A program made the translations under genes and the position numbers. DNA of 34,536 bases, taken from Candidatus Macondimonas diazotrophica. GTDB lineage: Bacteria; Pseudomonadota; Gammaproteobacteria; UBA5335. How positions within the stretch are numbered: the stretch's first letter is position 1; the number at the start of each line of letters is the position of its first letter. This document shows, piece by piece, positions 1 to 34,536 of this stretch. The DNA lies in NCBI RefSeq assembly GCF_004684205.1, contig NZ_SRIO01000019.1:1-34536 (forward strand). The letters run 5' to 3'. A model generated the notes under the pieces. It did no database searches. It had not been told where the DNA came from and saw only the letters and a program-made list of their open reading frames with translations.

Positions 1-252
1 GTATGTCTCGGGGGCTTCTACATCGAGGCGCGAGAGGCCAGTTCCGACGCCGTCAGCGGGGAAGACGATTCCCATGTACTGCGGGATTCTTGCGATCAGT
101 TTCTCGACATCCTTGTCGATCACAGCCTTGTTGTGCTCGACAAGGATGTCGAGAAACTGATCGCGAGAGCCGGACATGTCCCGATTTCCGAGCAGGACTT
201 CCGTGTCGCCCGGAAGGTCAGAGAGGTGTTTGATCAAATCCCCCGCTTTCAT
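1..252 (-). CDS. Hypothetical protein, 3' end cut by window edge
   Basis: This frame starts with an ATG at 252 and stays open for 84 codons to the window edge. The protein begins MKAGDLIKHLSDLPGDTEVL and is not recognised. The 'DLPGDTEVLL' stretch resembles small phage proteins of unknown function. Its ATG overlaps the stop of the upstream gene as TGATG, which implies translational coupling. Codons 29-55 are occupied by a very long near-perfect inverted repeat (88-168), which is abnormal for coding DNA. It is the last member of the late small-gene cluster in this window. The conserved start coupling makes it a credible gene, but function is unknown. Confidence 0.6.
   Translation of the reverse strand, partial: MKAGDLIKHLSDLPGDTEVLLGNRDMSGSRDQFLDILVEHNKAVIDKDVEKLIARIPQYMGIVFPADGVGTGLSRLDVEAPETY
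88..168. repeat. 81-nt near-perfect inverted repeat (hairpin) inside a gene
   Basis: The arms 92-119 and 137-164 are perfectly complementary over 28 bp. Pairing continues inward after one mismatch (120/136) for 4 more bp and outward to 88/168 with one weak pair. The loop is 7 nt (125-131). There is no T-run on either side, so it is not a normal intrinsic terminator. It lies entirely inside the coding frame of the truncated gene. Confidence 0.9.
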
Positions 253-2885: not shown

Positions 2886-3608
2886 TCATGAATTCGGGAA
2901 GGGAGATTCCGGCGGCGTAAACTCGGCTGTGTACCTTGCTACACCTTTGGTGATTCGTATCTCATCAACGTCAAAACTGTCATTCTCCACCTGGATCGAG
3001 AAGGGAGCAGAACTGGCGTAAAAGCCATAATTAGTCGTACTACTCGCAACGACAACGCCATCATAGAACATGCGCAAAGTGCTCCCGTCGCCTGTGACGG
3101 CGAGATGTGCCCACGTATCCAGGGGGAGAGGTGCGTTCGGGATCATGTTCTGATTTGTTGATCCGTTGTGGGACCAACGAAAGCCCATCCGGTCGGGTGG
3201 AACTCCTAGAGTGCTGGATTCAAATCTCCAGGATCTCTGGCCCCCGGAGGTGACATACTTTTGAATAAAATTCGAAGTCCCTACAGATTCCCCTCTTCTC
3301 CTGATCCAGTATTCGATGGTAAACTCCCCCGACCCGAAGGAAAAATCTCCATCATCGGATTTGGTTCCCGAAGCAGTCAAAACCCCGCGCCTCAGTCTCC
3401 CCCCAAACTTACCACCCGAAATCTGCGCATCTCCACGGGAAAGCGTTATTGAGTTGGCCTGACTGCTCTCGTCACTGAGAATAGTCTGGTTTGAGTCTAT
3501 GTTGTCGCAATGGCACAAAAACACAACTGACGAGAAGTGTTCGTCCCCCTGTCCGTAAACAGGATTGACTCGGCGTTGGATAGCGGAAGCAAGGAAACCG
3601 ATCGGCAT
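2886..3608 (-). CDS. LamG / concanavalin-like domain protein, probable receptor-binding tail protein
   Basis: The 240-residue protein has a short N-terminal segment, then a laminin-G / concanavalin A-like fold from about residue 25 to 235. Typical family signatures are visible: GEFTIEYWIRR, WAHLAVTGDGSTLRMFYDGV and DVDEIRITKGVARY. Such domains bind carbohydrates and are common on phage tail tips. It follows the tail fibre and its small partner, so a role in host surface recognition is inferred. The start at 3608 has a GTGAGG-like ribosome site. Residues about 1-15 may anchor it to the tail. Confidence 0.75.
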   Translation of the reverse strand: MPIGFLASAIQRRVNPVYGQGDEHFSSVVFLCHCDNIDSNQTILSDESSQANSITLSRGDAQISGGKFGGRLRRGVLTASGTKSDDGDFSFGSGEFTIEYWIRRRGESVGTSNFIQKYVTSGGQRSWRFESSTLGVPPDRMGFRWSHNGSTNQNMIPNAPLPLDTWAHLAVTGDGSTLRMFYDGVVVASSTTNYGFYASSAPFSIQVENDSFDVDEIRITKGVARYTAEFTPPESPFPNS

Positions 3609-3928: not shown

Positions 3929-6025
3929 CTAAACTCCTGTCACTGTGAAAGTTATTGTGAAACGCACATTGATTTCTACGCCGGATGTCAAGGCTGACAC
4001 AGCAGTATTGGAAGTCACTCCCACCCCCATCGGATCTCCACTCCGGAGCGAGAAAAAAGTATTCCCCGCTGAACTTTGCAGGATGGGAAGAGGGTCTACG
4101 AATGAGATCTTCTCCACATAGTTTAGAGCTATGTAAGAGACTTGGCCCGATGCGGTAAAAGGGCTTCCCCCAATCCTAACCGCCCCAGAAGCCGTAGAGA
4201 AGGTCGGAGTACACACTATTCGTCCGGTGACAGTCACCAGGTCCCCAATGCGGCGGTACTCTCCCGACTGAATGGAATAAGATACCGCCAAATCTCCGGG
4301 AGTGGCGCAAATTAACGTGGGCGTCCATGTTCCGGACTCGTGATCCAGGGCGGCGACGGAGCCAAGGCCGGCCACAATCTCGTCTATCGCCGCCTGTGCC
4401 TCATCCGCAGACAAACCAGATGTCGTGTTGTCATAGGCGACTTGCTCCGCGTCCAAGGCCCCGGACGAAGCGGGCTCTAGGTCCCCGGCAAGAACCCACG
4501 TATCTGTCGCGGTCTTGACCAGCGACACTACGGAGTTCTGCTCCCGCAGGGCGAGGCTCCCCGCCGATGGGTAACTGATCGTGACTCCCGACCCTTCCGC
4601 AAGCGTGGTCTGTCCTGCCCCTTTTTGATGCACGTTCAGGATCGTGCCGACATCGAAGGCGACAGAAGAGTTTGGCGGGACTGTGAGGGTGTTGACTGCA
4701 CCGTTGTTCATGGCGACAAGAACGTCGTTCGCGTCGCCTATGACGAAAGTATATGTCGTCCCGGTCTGCTCATTCTCCGTCAGTGTGTTCGGGCCGCTCT
4801 CCGGCGCGTCAACGAACTCGATGCCGTCTTCCCCGGATGTCACCGCAAGAAGTTTTCCACCATGGCTTGAGTAGCTACCCGGAGCATCGTCGAGATCGGT
4901 GAAGTTCTCCGCTCCACCGTTGCCGTTGATTTCGGAGAACGACAGATTGGACGATCCGACTGTGATGGACCCTGTCGTCGTCAGGATGAAAAGCTTGCCG
5001 CCGTTTGCGGTGCCTTCCTCGACATAACACACCGCGCCGGTCGTCACCTCCGCATCTTCATCGAAATCGGTTGCCCGTGTCGGGGCACCGGAAGCGTTCA
5101 CGGTATAGATACCGTTCTCGCTGGCAGAGGCCTGGTCCTGGACGAGAATCCGGTCACCGGTCGCTAGGGTCACGCCGTCTACGGTATCACCGTCCTCGAA
5201 ATCGGACGCCAGGGTCCCGGCAGCGGTCGTGGCAGCCCTGACACTCTCCTTCCAGTCAACAACAGGAACTTCAGAGACGCCGACATCGACAAATTCGTAT
5301 TCCCCCGCAGAATTGTTCCATGCGAGTGTCTGCCCGTCCTGCGACGGTCCCGGAGCGGTCGGCATGTCCGCCAGGTCGGTGATGTTCAGTGCGGTCGGAT
5401 CGATGCCGAATGTGACCACTCCTCCGGATGCCGTTGCCGTGAAGAACGGATCGTCGAAGTCAAGCGTGGTATAGTTCTCCGAATTCGTGACATCAGACGT
5501 CTCGACCTGAATGACGGTCGCAACGAACTCTATTCCGTCCGGCGCAGAGTTTACACGAAGCTGCCGCCCCGCCGCGCTTGTGTATGCAGCTGGGACGTCT
5601 CCGAGATCGGTGAAGTTGGTGGCCGATGCGCCAGAAGCTGCGACGTAGAACGATGTTCCATCATAAACGATGATCGCTGTCGTCGACGGTTCCACGGCAA
5701 GTGACGCAGATCCGTCTGTGACATTGACGTTTCCTGTCCCGGCGTTCCGGATCAGGAACAGACGATTCGTAGTCTGGGTCCCTTCGTCCGTCGTGATCTC
5801 GTCTGGCACAGTGAGATTCGTGGTCGTTGTGTGACCGGAACACCGGAACAGGACGTAACGCGTGAACTGCGCCTGCGAAAGTTCGACAGCACCCTCGGTC
5901 AAGTCGACTTCAAGCGTACGGTTGATTGCCGCCTCAAGTGCGACAACCGCATCATTCGCCGTCAGATATGGAGAGTCCTGTGCTGGCGCGATCTGTTCAA
6001 TCGCCAGATAGGGCGTTTGTGCCAT
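3929..6025 (-). CDS. Tail fibre / receptor-binding protein (698 aa)
   Basis: This is a modular fibre. A short repeat of the form FTDLxDxP...DGIEFV occurs at about residues 138-168, 215-246 and 375-406. Residues about 257-365 form a domain with GDRILVQDQ and ENGIYTV, seen in many phage fibres. The phrase YDNTTSGLSADEAQAAIDEI at about 531-550 is a common linker before the distal part. From about 565 (GTWTP...GEYRRIGDLVTVTG...VRIGGSPF) it resembles beta-rich receptor-binding tips. The gene has its own promoter about 30 bp upstream (6052-6080). Gene order puts it right after the tail tip protein. Exact host receptor unknown. Confidence 0.85.
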   Translation of the reverse strand: MAQTPYLAIEQIAPAQDSPYLTANDAVVALEAAINRTLEVDLTEGAVELSQAQFTRYVLFRCSGHTTTTNLTVPDEITTDEGTQTTNRLFLIRNAGTGNVNVTDGSASLAVEPSTTAIIVYDGTSFYVAASGASATNFTDLGDVPAAYTSAAGRQLRVNSAPDGIEFVATVIQVETSDVTNSENYTTLDFDDPFFTATASGGVVTFGIDPTALNITDLADMPTAPGPSQDGQTLAWNNSAGEYEFVDVGVSEVPVVDWKESVRAATTAAGTLASDFEDGDTVDGVTLATGDRILVQDQASASENGIYTVNASGAPTRATDFDEDAEVTTGAVCYVEEGTANGGKLFILTTTGSITVGSSNLSFSEINGNGGAENFTDLDDAPGSYSSHGGKLLAVTSGEDGIEFVDAPESGPNTLTENEQTGTTYTFVIGDANDVLVAMNNGAVNTLTVPPNSSVAFDVGTILNVHQKGAGQTTLAEGSGVTISYPSAGSLALREQNSVVSLVKTATDTWVLAGDLEPASSGALDAEQVAYDNTTSGLSADEAQAAIDEIVAGLGSVAALDHESGTWTPTLICATPGDLAVSYSIQSGEYRRIGDLVTVTGRIVCTPTFSTASGAVRIGGSPFTASGQVSYIALNYVEKISFVDPLPILQSSAGNTFFSLRSGDPMGVGVTSNTAVSALTSGVEINVRFTITFTVTGV

Positions 6026-6051
6026 CTTAGTTTACCTGTGGGAGAGTTCCT

Positions 6052-6080
6052 TTCATACTATAAAACTGACTTTTTGTCAA
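6052..6080 (-). promoter_or_regulatory. Promoter of the tail fibre gene
   Basis: On the minus strand a perfect -35 TTGACA (6080-6075) is followed after 17 nt by TATGAA (6057-6052). The spacer carries TTTTA at positions 10-14, shared with three other promoters of this window. The predicted start lies about 20 nt before the fibre ATG. Confidence 0.8.
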
Positions 6081-6094
6081 GATTTTTGGCCGAC

Positions 6095-9000
6095 TCAGGC
6101 TTCGATCAGTTCATCCAGGACTCCTGGGAACCCGTCTCCGATCCGTCCCGAAATCTGACACACGGCCACATGGAGAATATCGGACCCAAGGGTGAAGGCA
6201 TCCGTCGCCTGCATTGCAGCCGTGTAGGTGATCTCAGGAGAAGTCACAGTCTCCTTTCGGATGTACGTTGCTGGCACATCTCCTCCTGTGTGTGCTGACG
6301 CCAGGAAATACACATTGTAGCTCTCGTCTTCCTCGGAATTGGGCAAGGACGATCCGTCGCCAGTGAGCCAGTCCTGTGTCGCAAGCCGCTCACGCCGACT
6401 CCAGCTGAGGTCGATGTCAGACCCGTCCACTTCCGCTCGGATGTCAGCCGGCGCCCATGGTCGAATGGCATTGCCCTTGATTGTGTAGTCCGTCGAAACT
6501 GCCTCTTCCTGGTACTGGTTCTTGGAAACAGCGCGGTAGAAGAACTGGACGTCAAGCTCGGTATAATCGAACGGCATGATGTCGACCGCAAAGTCCTGAA
6601 GAGCGATGACCCTCGGCTTCGCACCGTGCGTCTTGACCGCCCATTCCGTTCCGAACATCCCTCGGCGAAGATGACTGACCTCCCACGTCCGGCTGTCGAT
6701 CTGTGTCGCGTCCCGGTACTGGACGATCTCGTCGTCAATCAGGAGCATGTTCAGCCGCCCGGCCAGGAATTCGTCCTGTGTGATGGACACCAGTTCAACA
6801 TCGCTCGTCTCGAACTTGATCGTGAGCGTTGTTCGGTCATCCGTTGCGAAAGTCCCGTTCGCCGGGATTTCGAGTGTGTGTGTGAGGGCGCCCCACGGAA
6901 TGTCCTGATTCGCCACCTGCCACGGATCGTAGGTCAGTCCGTCCCCGGAGCGCTGAACCTCTGCAAACTTCCATCCGTCCGTCTCGGCTCCGACAGCCAT
7001 GTAAACAGGAATGAACGACGTCCCAGCCGGCTCGTCCACCAGGGCGAGGATAGGAATATCCATCAGGAACAGGTAGCTGTCTATCGCGGAACCAATCGTT
7101 TGCGACGGTACGCCAGCTCCTGTTGAGCCTACAGCCGCAGACGAGAAAGTCTCCGGATACACGGCGACCGTCTCAAGCTCTGACTGGAACGCCCTGCCGA
7201 GATCAAAGGACGTGATCCTCTCGCGGAACACCCGGCCATCGTTCATCTCGATCTGGATGACATCTCCCGGATCGAGGTCCATGTGCCGTGGAAGCAGGGA
7301 GAGCTTCTTGCTCTCTTTTTCGATCCAGGCGGTGTAGAGAAGCTTTTCAGCCTGCTGTTTCGCGTCATCGGCAATGAGGACAATGGGCCACGAGAAGTTC
7401 GAGGAACGGGACGAGAAGTGCGTGGGGTAAGGGAACTGAGCGCGTTTTGCGCGCTGGTGTCCTTCCTGGTAGTCTCGATCGAGGTCGTGATATGTGATCT
7501 CAACCCTGGACGGAAGTTCGCTGTCTGCGGTTCTGACAAGGATGTAGCGCTGATACCCCTTGTCCCCGTCCTCGACGTCGATCAATTCGTCCTCAGAAAT
7601 GGTCCTGACCGGATCACTTGACTTCATACTGAAGACCAGTCGACCGTCGCTCTCGCGACCGACGAAGTTATAGACAGTGGACAGGGTTTCCAGGAGGTCC
7701 TTTACGGTAGCTTCGGACGACTGAACAAAGCCATAAACCGTGTTTCCTTCCAGCTCCGTCGTCAGGTATTGCGACTCATCCAGCCCGGCGAAATCCAGGA
7801 GATCGGCGACGACATCCGCAAGGTCGGCGGCTGTCCGGTCTACCCTGCCTGTGAAAATGGTTGTGTAGCCATGTTCGTCGGTCGTCGTTATGATCGCGCC
7901 GTGTCGGTCATCGTAGAACTGATAGGCGTCTGTTGTCGGTTCGAGCGTGGCGTCAATGCCGGCAAGGTCGACATAGGTCAGCTTGCCGTCATAGACGCGA
8001 CAAATGCAGAGAACGCCCCCATCGATCCACTGGACCTCGCCTCTCTGGATCACCGAATTGTCGATGCCGTAGGGGATGGCATTGTCAATACGGCGCGACC
8101 ATCCTCTGTCTCTTTTCGTGACTGGGTAGAGCTGGATGGTCTCCTCGCCTACCTCGATCGAGTTCTCCGTCTCGATATAGGCGTCGGAACTGGTCCGGTC
8201 ATTCAGACTGGGAGGAGTCTCGCGCCGAATGAAGATCTGTCCCTGATCCTCGTACCAGTAGACGATACAGTTGTCGCTCTCGCAGAAAACGAGGGATTCC
8301 GGATTGGGCTCGACATCCTCGACGATATTGAAGTCCTTGAACCCGCCAAGATTGCCATCAAGATCGATGCGCCATTCATGCATCACCATTTCTGTGATAT
8401 TGTCGTCTTCCGACAGGGTTACGCACAGGCGACGGTTGTCGACCATAGGTCCGACAACGATCTGACGGCTGATATAGCCAGCAGGGTATGTGTCCGTGAT
8501 CGTATCTTCGGTCGTGGTCCAGTCATCAGGATCGCCCTTAATGAGGGCAAGAGACGAATTTGTTCCGGAAACGAACCAGAACCCCTTATTGGTTTGCCCT
8601 TCGACATCGACTTCCACGTATTTCGCGTTGTCGATGGCCCCAATTCCTGAAGAGGAAATGCGTCCTACCTCGACACCCGTCGAGGCGTTGATGATGGAGA
8701 TAGAGTGTGTACTGATCTGCCCAAGGATGAAATCCCCGTCTGTCGCATGGGGGACAAAACTCGTCGCGGCGTGCACGCTCTGGTTTACGGTTCCGTCTGA
8801 GCTTACAAAATTCAGGGGTGGGATCGGCCTGCGATCATCCAGTTCCTGACTCCTGTAGTGGATGCGGTACAGGACCCCGGACTCGACCACAAACGACCGG
8901 CGGCGGAGGGGGTCGACTATGGGTTTGTTGTCGGCGAACGCGGTTTTGCTCACTTCAGCGGCGACATGATCCAGGGCGTCGTAGACGATGACCTCTTCCT

Positions 9001-29856: not shown

Positions 29857-30630
29857 ATGCTGAAGACGCGCATCATCCCCTGCCTGGACGTCAAGGACGG
29901 GCGCACCGTGAAGGGTGTGAACTTTGTCGACCTGCGCGATGCCGGCGATCCGGTGGAGCTGGCGCGCGCCTATTCCGAGGCCGGCGCAGACGAGCTTTGC
30001 TTCCTCGACATCACCGCGAGCCATGAAGAGCGCGGCACCATGCTGGAAGTCGTCACCCGCACAGCCGAGCAGTGCTTCATGCCGCTCACCGTGGGCGGGG
30101 GCGTGCGCTCGGCTGCGGACATGGTCCAGCTGTTGCGCGCGGGGGCCGACAAGGTGGCGATCAATTCCGTCGCCGTGGCCAACCCCGACGTGATCGCCGA
30201 ATGCGCCGCGCGCGTCGGACGCCAATGCGTGGTGGTAGCCATAGATGCCCGGCTCGAAGGGGAGCGTTATGTGGTCTATACTCATGGTGGGCGCACGTCT
30301 TCCGGCGTGGACGCTGTGGAGCATGCCATTCGTGCTGAGGAACTGGGCGCGGGGGAAATCCTGCTCACCAGCATGGACAAGGACGGCACCAAATCCGGCT
30401 TCGACATCCCGATGCTCAAGGCCGTCACCGAGGCCGTAAACATTCCCGTCATCGCCTCGGGCGGGGCCGGATCGGCGGCAGATTTCGGGCCGGCTGTCAT
30501 CGAGGGCGGGGCGAATGCCGTGCTCGCCGCCTCGATCTTCCATTTCGGTGAAGTGAGCCTTGCCGAGGCCCGTACCGCGCTGGCCGAGGCCGGCGCACCG
30601 GTACGCCCGTTTGAAGGAGATGCAGCATGA
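29857..30630 (+). CDS. hisF: Imidazole glycerol phosphate synthase, cyclase subunit
   Basis: The 257-residue protein begins [20 protein letters not shown] and is a full-length (beta/alpha)8 HisF. Catalytic Asp11 (in [10 protein letters not shown]) and Asp130 (in [10 protein letters not shown]) are both present. HisF takes ammonia from HisH and closes the imidazole ring of PRFAR, giving IGP and AICAR. The gene is on the plus strand, facing hisA and hisH, and overlaps hisE by four bases (ATGA). It is richer in G/C at third positions than the phage genes around it and lacks a ribosome site. All catalytic residues seem intact, so it should be active. Confidence 0.97.
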
Positions 30631-30980
30631 GCGAGGAAAAAAGGCTCGGCTCGCCAGCGGAGTTTTTCGCCGCACTCGACCATCTCGCCCAGACAGTGGA
30701 TGCGCGCGCCGGCGGGGGCGGGGGCCCGGAGGCTTCCTACACGGCAAAACTGCTGGCGAAAGGCACCGGCAAGTGCGCCAAGAAATTCGGCGAGGAAGCG
30801 GTCGAACTGGCCCTCGCCCTGGTCAGCGAGAGCGATGAGGCCGTCGCCAGCGAGGCCGGCGATGTACTCTATCACCTGATGGTGGCCCTGCGCGCACGCG
30901 GGATAAGCCTGGACGAGGTGGGCGCAGCGCTGGCTGCCCGCCAGGCCATGTCAGGGCTTGAGGAAAAGGCCCTGCGTTAG
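30627..30980 (+). CDS. hisE: Phosphoribosyl-ATP pyrophosphatase
   Basis: The 117-residue protein has the PRA-PH signature: [28 protein letters not shown], then [15 protein letters not shown], with the Glu/Asp metal-binding residues intact. It removes pyrophosphate from phosphoribosyl-ATP, the second step of histidine synthesis. It is coupled to hisF through ATGA. Its stop codon overlaps the stop of hisA from the other strand (TAG and TAA share two bases at 30978-30979). A glycine run (AGGGGGPE) lies near residue 30. Confidence 0.95.
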
Positions 30981-31714
30981 GAACTTTTTGCCTGCTCAAG
31001 GGCTTGTTCGGGGTCGATATCGCCATCATAAAGCGCCCGCCCAAGGATGCAGCCGGCCACGGGACGCTCGACCTCTGCCGCACGCAGGGCGGTGATGTCG
31101 CTCACGCTCGCCACGCCGCCGCTGGCGATCACCGGAATGGAGACGGCTGAGGCGAGTTCGGCGGTAAAATCGACATTTACCCCGGTTTTCAGCCCGTCGC
31201 GGCCAATATCGGTGGCGATGATCGCGGCGACGCCACAGCCCTCGAAGGCCTTTGCCAGGTCCACCGCCAGCATGTCGGAGGTCTCCGCCCAGCCCTCCAC
31301 GGCAACCCGGCCATTCTTGGCGTCGATGCCGACGACAATCCGCCCGGGCAGGTCGCGCGCCGCGCTGCGGACCAGGTCCGGATCACGCAGGGCCGCCGTG
31401 CCGAGGATGACGCGCGAGAGCCCCGCCTCCAGCCAGGCCTCGATCTGGGCACGGGTGCGGATGCCTCCGCCAAGTTGCACCGGCACATTTGTCGCCGCCA
31501 GGATCGCGCGCACCGCATCGCCATTGGCGCTCTCCCCCGCGAAGGCGCCGTTGAGGTCGACCACATGCAGGTGGTCGAAGCCCATGGCGACGAACTGGCG
31601 GGCCTGGTTAGCCGGATCGGCGTTGAAGGTCGTCGCCTGGTCCATCTCGCCCCGGATCAGCCGGACGCACTGGCCATCCTTCAGGTCGATGGCGGGATAG
31701 AGGGTGAAGGGCAT
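30977..31714 (-). CDS. hisA: ProFAR isomerase (HisA)
   Basis: The 245-residue protein begins [20 protein letters not shown] and is a full-length HisA barrel. Catalytic Asp10 (PAID) and Asp131 (VVGIDAKNG) are present, as are LGGGIRT and ASGGVAS phosphate-binding loops. It isomerises ProFAR to PRFAR, the substrate of HisF/HisH. It starts two bases after the stop of hisH in the direction of the phage genes. It ends in a stop that overlaps the stop of hisE from the opposite strand. The reading is intact. Confidence 0.97.
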
Positions 31715-31716
31715 TT

Positions 31717-32358
31717 TCAGGGTTTCCAGGCGAGGAAATTGGAGAGCAGTTTCAGGCCGACCGCCTGGCTCTTTTCCGGATGGAACTGGGTGCCGAAGAC
31801 GTTCTCGCGCGCCACGGCGGCCACGATGGGTCGACCATACTCGGTCAGCGCGGCGATCTGGCTCTCGTCTTCCGGCGAGAGCGCATAGGAATGCACGAAA
31901 TAGGCGTGCGGCTCTTCGCTGAGATCGCGTAGCACCGGGTGGTCCATGCGAATATCGAGGCTGTTCCAGCCCATATGCGGCACGGGCAAACCGGCGCCCG
32001 GCTCAATCGGCTGGACCATGCCATGGACCCAGCCAAGACCCGAGGTCTCGCCATCCTCCAGGCTGAAATCGGCGAGCAGCTGCATGCCGACACAGATGCC
32101 GAGGAAAGGCCTACCGCGCTCATGCACGGCTTCTTCCATGGCTTCGATCACGCCGGTGCGCGCTTCCAGCTCGCCCTTGCACTGGGCGAAATGGCCGACG
32201 CCGGGCAGGACAATCCGGTCGGCTTTGGCGATGAATTCCGGATCGGCGGTCAGCTGGATATCGGCGCGCTTTCCTACCAGGCGCGCGGCTTCCACCAGCG
32301 CACGTTTGGCCGAGTGCACATTCCCGGAGTCATAATCGATAAGCGCGACTTTCTGCAT
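31717..32358 (-). CDS. hisH: Imidazole glycerol phosphate synthase, glutamine amidotransferase subunit
   Basis: The 213-residue protein begins [21 protein letters not shown] longer open frame reaches 32394, but homologous HisH proteins begin at this Met. The class I amidotransferase triad is complete: Cys89 in GICVGMQ, His193 and Glu195 in [11 protein letters not shown]. It supplies ammonia from glutamine to HisF. The gene lies 53 bp after the last phage gene upstream, in the same direction as portal, and no terminator separates them, so portal transcripts could run through it. No ribosome site is evident. Confidence 0.96.
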
Positions 32359-32411
32359 CGCGGCGGACTTACGCGCTGCTGTCCGGCGGCGCAATGGCGC
32401 AGACCGGTGTT

Positions 32412-32660
32412 TTACGAATCCGAACTGTCGTCCTGGGTCGTGGCTTTCTCAGCCGCATTGCGAATTCGGTCGTACAGGGCGGCGCCTGCCGCGTAGAGCG
32501 CGGTCGCCAGGGCGGTGAAGTTGACGACATCGCCTTGGATTCCCGTCGTTTCCTCGACAGGGACGCCAAATGCGTTCGCCAGGAGTGTAAGGAAAGTCGC
32601 AATGGCTGCGATCACAGCCTGCGTGCGTGCAGTGACTGAAAGGGCTGGAAGTTTGGTCAT
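32412..32660 (-). CDS. Small membrane protein, holin candidate (82 aa)
   Basis: The protein (MTKLPALSVTARTQAVIAAI) has two hydrophobic segments at about residues 12-32 and 47-64, separated by a short loop (VPVEETTGIQGD), and a charged C-terminus (AAEKATTQDDSSDS). That plan suits a class II holin. The start overlaps the stop of the previous gene as ATGA. It is far from the endolysin in this window, which is unusual. Alternatives are a head-associated membrane protein or a small unknown. It is the last phage gene before the histidine block. Confidence 0.6.
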   Translation of the reverse strand: MTKLPALSVTARTQAVIAAIATFLTLLANAFGVPVEETTGIQGDVVNFTALATALYAAGAALYDRIRNAAEKATTQDDSSDS

Positions 32661-32821
32661 GATCGGCGTTTCCTCGTTGGTCTCGATCCGGATTGCTTGC
32701 GCGCTTTTCGTCTTCCTGGGAGCCGGCGCTTGTGTGCTTCCAGGTCATCATCGTCCAACAGACCATAGATCGGCGCTTCGTCCGCCAGTGTGTCCAGCAG
32801 TCTGTCGAACTGATTACTCAT
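32657..32821 (-). CDS. Small basic protein between portal and holin candidate (54 aa)
   Basis: The start at 32821 overlaps the portal stop, in another frame, by a few bases. A longer frame within the portal gene is a shadow. The product (MSNQFDRLLDTLADEAPIYG, then LDDDDLEAHKRRLPGRRKAR) has an acidic helix followed by a very basic tail. Both flanking junctions are overlapping (ATG inside the portal end, ATGA at the other end), which supports translation. Function unknown, possibly DNA- or portal-associated. Confidence 0.6.
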   Translation of the reverse strand: MSNQFDRLLDTLADEAPIYGLLDDDDLEAHKRRLPGRRKARKQSGSRPTRKRRS

Positions 32822-34412
32822 CCTGGGGAGGTGGCTGGTCGCCGGGTGGAGATTGGGTCGCCTGTTCCTTGGCGAGTTTTTCCGCGCTGGCGCGTGCGGC
32901 TTCGTCCTCTTTCGCCTTCTGGCGAGCATTCGCATCCGCGAAGCCTTCCTTGCGGGCTTCAAAGTCCGGCTGATTGATGAAGCTGTTCGGATTGTCGAGG
33001 AGCGATTTGAACTCTTCGAGGGTCATCTCTTCCGGGACCACGTCCGATTTCACGAGATAGTCATAGACAACCTCGATCGGCAGAATTCCGTCCATGTACA
33101 TGGAGTGAATCGCCCGGAACTCGCGTGCGCCGGAGTGGTTGAGGAGGAAGTCCTTGCTCAGCGCGATCCTGATATCGGTCCGGGGCCTGGCGGCGCCTTC
33201 GTGCCACTGGACCCACAGGCGCAGGAGGCGGGTCACCGAGCGATCCACGACGCGGACCACATTCAGGAGGAGAGAGGCCTCGTTGGCCTCCTTCATGCGC
33301 AGTTCGTTGTCTGAGAGGGAAGCCTGGGCCTGAGCCTGGGAAATCAGGCGACCGCCAAGCGCGGCAATCTGGTTCTCCTTCTCGACAAGCGACTGTTCGA
33401 GGGATTTAAGACCGGTTCCGTGGAACTCCAGGATACCGGGTTTCTCATCTTCCGGTCCGATCTGCCACACGACATTCGGGCCGATGACATATTCCTTGTT
33501 CTGGCCTGCGGTCGGAGCGTAATAGATCGGAAGTGCGGTGTGATAGCGCCCATGCTGCAGTTGGGCATAGTCGCGGTAATGCGCCAGGTTCAGCGTGACA
33601 ATATCGCGGATCGGAGGTTTCTCGATCTCGGCTGTGCCCGAGAAAGGCCCGAAAAACTCGAACGGAATGCGGTCGAAGGTCCGCCCCCGGTTGATGGGGG
33701 TTCGAACCTCGTCCGGGGCGCCTTCCAGGGAGGCATCTGCGCCTTGCTTGAAATACAGGTGCTGGCGGTAGACATGGGTGTGGGTCCCATCGTTCTGGGC
33801 TTCGAGAACCAGGACGCGGTACGAGGTCAGGATGGCGTGCTGGAAGAAGGAATACTCCCCGCTCCGTTCCTGCCGGCCTTCCCGCAGGACGACCCGTGTC
33901 AGGGTCCAGCGCCCCTCGATCTTCTCATAATCCCAATCGACGATATTCTCGGTCCGGTAGATCGAGACATAGGGAACATCGGTTGGCTTGTTGCCCCGGT
34001 CGACCAGGGCGCCAACGCGGCCTGTCTCCATGATCTCATCGACGATCAGCTTCGCAGCGAAGGCGGGATCGTTTCCGTCGTCGGTGAACTTGTGTTCAAG
34101 ATCGTCCTTGAACTTGTCTGGAATGCCGACAATGTCGGGGGCTCTGCGGAAAATTGCGCCGACGAGGCCGTTCTTGGTCCGCGCGCTCATGTTTACGAAG
34201 ACGGCGCGGGACAGGAACTCCTTGTAATCTTCGGCATCGGCTGCCGACATCTTGGGAAGATAGGTCTGGGCGCGCTCCTTGATGGCGTCTTCCCCGAGCA
34301 CGGCGTCGCGTTGTTCCTGCCATGTGGCTTTCCAGGCCATATATTGCGGATGCGCGTAGAGCGGCGAAGCCAACATGTCGTCGGTCCGGCGATATTTTCG
34401 GCTGGCTGGCAT
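32814..34412 (-). CDS. Portal protein (DUF4055 family)
   Basis: The 532-residue protein (MPASRKYRRTDDMLASPLYA) has the pattern of DUF4055 portal-like phage proteins: YLPKMSAADAEDYKEFLSRA, FVNMSARTKNGLVGAIFRRA, then LIVDEIMETGRVGALVDRGN and IVDWDYEKIEGRWTLTRVVL. A central YYAPTAGQNKEYVIGPNVVW follows. Its C-terminus is charged and proline-rich (SPPGDQPPPQDE). The portal forms the ring through which DNA enters the head, binding terminase and the connector. Its neighbours are tRNA genes upstream and small coupled genes downstream. The terminase is presumably just outside the window. Confidence 0.87.
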   Translation of the reverse strand: MPASRKYRRTDDMLASPLYAHPQYMAWKATWQEQRDAVLGEDAIKERAQTYLPKMSAADAEDYKEFLSRAVFVNMSARTKNGLVGAIFRRAPDIVGIPDKFKDDLEHKFTDDGNDPAFAAKLIVDEIMETGRVGALVDRGNKPTDVPYVSIYRTENIVDWDYEKIEGRWTLTRVVLREGRQERSGEYSFFQHAILTSYRVLVLEAQNDGTHTHVYRQHLYFKQGADASLEGAPDEVRTPINRGRTFDRIPFEFFGPFSGTAEIEKPPIRDIVTLNLAHYRDYAQLQHGRYHTALPIYYAPTAGQNKEYVIGPNVVWQIGPEDEKPGILEFHGTGLKSLEQSLVEKENQIAALGGRLISQAQAQASLSDNELRMKEANEASLLLNVVRVVDRSVTRLLRLWVQWHEGAARPRTDIRIALSKDFLLNHSGAREFRAIHSMYMDGILPIEVVYDYLVKSDVVPEEMTLEEFKSLLDNPNSFINQPDFEARKEGFADANARQKAKEDEAARASAEKLAKEQATQSPPGDQPPPQDE

Positions 34413-34435
34413 TCCTTTCGTGCTCGTTGTGGAGA

Positions 34436-34511
34436 TGGTATTCCCGACGGGATTTGAACCCGTATCGCCAGATTGAAAGTCTGGTATCCTAACCAGTTAG
34501 AAGACGGGAAC
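34436..34511 (-). tRNA. tRNA-Glu (anticodon TTC)
   Basis: The 76-nt sequence folds as a full cloverleaf. The acceptor GTTCCCG pairs with CGGGAAT (first pair G-T), with discriminator A and an encoded CCA. The anticodon arm is CCAGA-CTTTCAA-TCTGG with TTC, which reads GAA/GAG. The T arm carries TTCAAAT. It lies 23 bp upstream of the portal start. Confidence 0.95.
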
Positions 34512-34512
34512 A

Positions 34513-34536
34513 TGGCCTGCGCGGCAGGATTTGAAC
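34513..34536 (-). tRNA. Partial tRNA, 3' end only
   Basis: The last 24 nt match a T loop (TTCAAAT), T-stem half, acceptor 3' strand and encoded CCA, ending one base from the tRNA-Glu gene. The anticodon is outside the window, so the identity is unknown. Confidence 0.75.

Follow-up and report, generated by a model that had tools for sequence, protein, structure and literature searches.

A near-perfect hairpin at a phage contig edge in Candidatus Macondimonas diazotrophica as a likely snap-back copy at a chimeric join

RESULTS

The window, that is, the whole stretch of DNA analyzed here, is the complete contig C19 (34,536 bases) of the 94-contig draft genome of Candidatus Macondimonas diazotrophica. 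The contig carries part of the genome of a large tailed phage, whose portal protein is 41 to 45% identical to those of 100- to 150-kb phages (phages of Rhodobacter, Ruegeria, and Citromicrobium and a Microcystis phage record). Contig C30 holds sequence of the same phage, as does IMG/VR contig 3300039005_000032, a 99.93% match to positions 31638 to 34536 of the window. A hairpin begins 87 bases from the first base of the contig and lies, as the first-pass annotation had it, inside a reading frame cut by the left edge; the features of the locus are collected in Table 1.

Table 1. Features at the left end of contig C19
Feature	Positions	Strand	Remarks
Open frame across the chimera, 84 aa	1..252	-	No stop before contig end
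C-terminal part of DUF7831, profile ~68-111 of 118	1..138	-	PF25176 match and stepwise truncations; cut by contig end
Left arm	88..124	-	Native DUF7831 sequence, encodes VIDKDVEKLIAR; putative copy source, exact part 92-119
Putative native seed stem, CACA-GCCTTGT-TGTG	121..135		Sequence read directly
Loop, 7 nt	125..131		Native; residues 41-43 add ~1.5 bits to DUF7831 match
Right arm	132..168	-	Putative inverted copy of left arm; exact copy 137-164
N-terminus of a different small gene, MKAGDLIKHLSDLPGDTEVLLGNRDMSGS	165..252	-	TGATG couples gene to upstream gene

Several other features of this phage were recorded. A histidine biosynthesis cassette (window positions 29857 to 32394) separates the scaffold and portal genes of the phage; hisF-hisE is on the plus strand and hisA-hisH on the minus strand, the two converging with overlapping stops, and the G+C content of the cassette is 66%, compared with 57% in the phage. 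The hisH-portal side of the cassette recurs in IMG/VR contig L135, four related phages (L142, L143, L144, and Mwe-JY26) have portal and scaffold genes without the cassette, and the host's own hisF (60% identical) and hisA lie at C1:178523-180026. The large terminase gene of the same phage (L135:1846-4053) has an insert that interrupts the ATP-binding motif (GHAK^STY); the insert is intein-like, with a below-cutoff match to PF14890 (27.1 bits), and appears to begin with proline.

The arms of the hairpin are 37 nt each and 95% complementary. Pairing is perfect over 28 bp (92-119 with 137-164), reaches 33 bp with one mismatch (120/136), and reaches 37 bp with a second (91/165), so the stem and loop lengths first annotated here are all present where they had been placed. 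The region from 60 to 200 folds at -81.7 kcal/mol, with a z score of -10.3 relative to shuffled sequences. When the same 84 residues were synonymously resampled 1,000 times with the phage's own codons, no stem was longer than 17 bp, and the longest stem in the other 252-nt blocks of the window was 15 bp. Because the 28-bp stem far exceeds the resampled maximum, chance similarity was ruled out, and the earlier view that arm identity of this length goes beyond chance is borne out. The match is exact at 28 of 28 positions, as expected of a template switch, and the two mismatches sit exactly at its borders; since the right arm is exact throughout the intervening 28 nt, we read these mismatches as the borders of a copy and not as a sign of age. 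An old duplication with 5% divergence was accordingly dropped. At position 165 the right arm departs from the pairing except for a 3-nt match, which could be accidental or a microhomology. Pairing ends at 88 and 168, with different sequence on the two flanks, which disposes of a simple, complete fold-back of the contig end.

Judged from its sequence, the minus-strand frame from 252 to 1 is a chimera of two genes. Residues 39 to 84, left arm included, correspond to the C-terminal half of DUF7831, a phage family; the match to PF25176 scores 38.6 bits against a cutoff of 27 and spans profile positions 60 to 111 of 118, a score above the cutoff for what is only a fragment of the domain. Stepwise truncation gave 26.6 bits for residues 56 to 84, 35.0 for residues 44 to 84, 36.5 for residues 41 to 84, 37.5 for residues 39 to 84, and 39.8 for residues 26 to 84. 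Residues 44 to 55, encoded by the left arm, thus lift the score from 26.6 to 35.0 bits, and residues 30 to 38, encoded by the right arm, bring a gain of only about 2 bits; the left arm is therefore native DUF7831 sequence, to which the right arm adds almost nothing. In an alignment with four phage homologues, I45, D46, and D48 were invariant. The first-pass annotation had both arms encoding protein, which is true of the frame, but the conserved residues come from the left arm only.

Full-length homologues of DUF7831 were found in Ruegeria, Brevundimonas, and Caulobacter phages and in Microcystis phage Mwe-JY26. The N-terminal half of the family (FGDN...GGQA), kept in all five homologues that were read, is missing from the chimeric frame, where its place is taken by the right arm and the unrelated start MKAGDLIKHLSDLPGDTEVLLGNRDMSGS. 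No Pfam family matched residues 1 to 30, and searches with this N-terminus yielded no significant phage match, only a tblastn hit with an E value of 3. Among 274 genomes of the host class, DUF7831 was found nowhere besides the C19 fragment, and a search for the intact DUF7831 locus of the C19 phage itself did not find it.

The hairpin was absent from the DUF7831 genes of five relatives, none of which had a stem longer than 8 bp at the homologous place or elsewhere. Comparison of orthologues for one arm versus two, suggested at first annotation, showed the five homologues with the N-terminal half intact and one arm only, as a template switch would predict, although this is weak evidence, with homologues as distant as ~30 to 35% identity. 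Related phages have DUF7831 and the portal gene on opposite strands and tens of kilobases apart in six of six cases (Ruegeria phages V10, DSS3P8, and RpAliso; Phaeobacter phage MD18; Caulobacter phage Ccr34 or a close relative; and Mwe-JY26). In C19 the DUF7831 fragment shares the minus strand with the portal gene, which is what an inverted join would give; the argument rests on distant relatives, and gene order in the C19 phage may differ.

Searches for the join elsewhere used the protein and the 28-mer against viral contigs, the protein against genome contigs, and the neighboring genes as a further route; the join did not recur in viral contigs, in phage records, in plasmids, or among 84,980 genomes. 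DNA from positions 1 to 1500 had no match among phages and plasmids. The absence of a second join is weak evidence because the left part of the phage is missing from those collections altogether.

The scan for hairpins covered ~1.24 of the 2.80 Mb of the draft, every contig end included. Near-perfect hairpins (score of at least 14) numbered 3 in 31 kb of contig ends (the last 170 bases) and 9 in 1.21 Mb of interior, a 12.9-fold higher rate at the ends, on small counts. This enrichment fits an origin at the contig end as well as one in the phage, because a strong hairpin could itself halt assembly nearby. Within the 1.24 Mb, only one other hairpin had a perfect 28-bp stem, and it lies between open frames on contig C30. 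There, positions 4915 to 5200 (L042) hold a cluster of TTACAG-N5-CTGTAA-type repeats and a 46-nt inverted repeat (85%) with the perfect 28-bp core, near a helix-turn-helix gene (5991 to 6476); this is possibly an operator region of the phage. The final base of contig C44 (L057) is also that of a perfect 17-bp hairpin in an open frame (2968 to 3024), which may be a second fold-back contig end; no relative covered this hairpin.

DISCUSSION

The hairpin is confirmed as sequence, and it is more likely to be a snap-back copy made at a chimeric join in vitro or in assembly than one made in the phage. The anatomy suggests an order of events. The strand carrying the DUF7831 gene would have ended at TGTGC (132 to 136) and folded back on an apparently native 4-bp CACA/TGTG stem (121-124 with 132-135), which surrounds a loop with DUF7831 homology on both of its sides. 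Extension from the mismatched end (120/136), whose base looks like the last native one, would then have copied 28 nt of the strand's own sequence, from 119 down to 92, and a template switch at about 164/165 would have joined the product to an unrelated phage gene start. The left arm would be the native source and the right arm its copy, and the recent inverted duplication proposed at first annotation is upheld to that extent. We infer this order from the anatomy, and we likewise infer, on other grounds, a setting in vitro rather than in the phage.

We consider library preparation, amplification, or assembly of the contig end to be the probable origin of this copy. The first-pass annotation had also raised a fold-back artefact near the window end, and this is the most likely cause because the window starts where the contig starts and the frame is a chimera of two genes. 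The join, together with all of the foreign sequence, falls in the terminal 164 nt of the contig, which may be about the length of one short read, and the higher density of near-perfect hairpins at contig ends, small counts notwithstanding, also favors an artefact. The two sides are halves of different genes, and DUF7831, which shares the minus strand with the portal gene here, is found on the opposite one and at a distance from the portal in the six relatives, which again favors an artefact. End repair in library preparation is known to yield chimeric reads with inverted repeats, an artefact described under the PDSM model (PMC10908179), in which, as proposed for C19, a native short inverted repeat is followed by an opposite-strand copy to give a near-perfect hairpin; those were soft-clipped reads from human DNA libraries, whereas the C19 copy would have become part of a contig end and been fused to a third sequence. 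Against an artefact, the frame is open across both joins with DUF7831 in the right frame and strand, which a random join would achieve about 1 time in 6, and copying in a simple fold-back would run on to the end of the molecule, whereas the stop after 28 nt in C19 calls for a second join. The main rival, to which we give a clearly smaller though appreciable likelihood, is a genuine and very recent rearrangement of the phage, in which template switching during replication fused two genes and left the hairpin, either by quasi-palindrome extension or by microhomology-mediated repair that inserted 28 nt of inverted, templated sequence. The same footprint, a native seed stem with an exact reverse-complement copy, results from template switching in living cells (PMC8794818, PMC7202029, PMC8604942), the fused frame is open with DUF7831 kept in frame, and DUF7831 is native to the phage lineage, so that the material is not foreign. 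The hairpin-creating template-switch mutations (PMC8794818) and the quasi-palindrome mutations of E. coli (PMC7202029) place, as proposed for C19, a reverse-complement copy beside its source with a short native stem as seed, and the C19 loop of 7 falls inside their reported range, but those events return to the original template, whereas the far side in C19 runs on in a different gene. Moreover, both genes would be broken, the identity of the arms at all 28 positions means that the event must be very recent, no other sequence with the join was found, and the site is where assemblies are least reliable. That a single switch in vivo joined the two half-genes in frame through the 28-nt insert and so created a new expressed protein seems very unlikely.

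A role for the hairpin itself was also weighed. A functional RNA element is unlikely, and we regard as most improbable any hairpin under selection, whether as an RNase III processing site, an RNA regulator, or a phage DNA signal. The fold is very stable, but the DUF7831 genes of the five relatives do without such a stem, and the presence of conserved residues in one arm and not in the other gives no sign of joint constraint. No Rfam family reached its gathering score; the best match was mir-576 (41.3 bits against 99), and the matches were sub-threshold microRNA models only, which fit long hairpins in general. With the hairpin in no relative, the structured RNA element once suggested here finds no support. 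The perfect inverted repeat within a reading frame also recalls the coding palindromes of nematomorph mitochondria (PMC6649704), which are likewise long and perfect inverted repeats in open frames; there the conserved residues lie in both arms, whereas in C19 the DUF7831 score comes from the left arm only and the family is cut short at the right arm; a palindrome of this type, with both arms encoding conserved protein, is barely credible.

The preferred reading, a snap-back copy from library preparation, amplification, or assembly, carries a warning: where a draft contig has a striking hairpin close to its edge, the hairpin can be the mark left by a fold-back join, and a protein read across the C19 join should not be taken as a new domain fusion. 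If the join were real in the reads, it would be a clear phage example of gene fusion by template switching.
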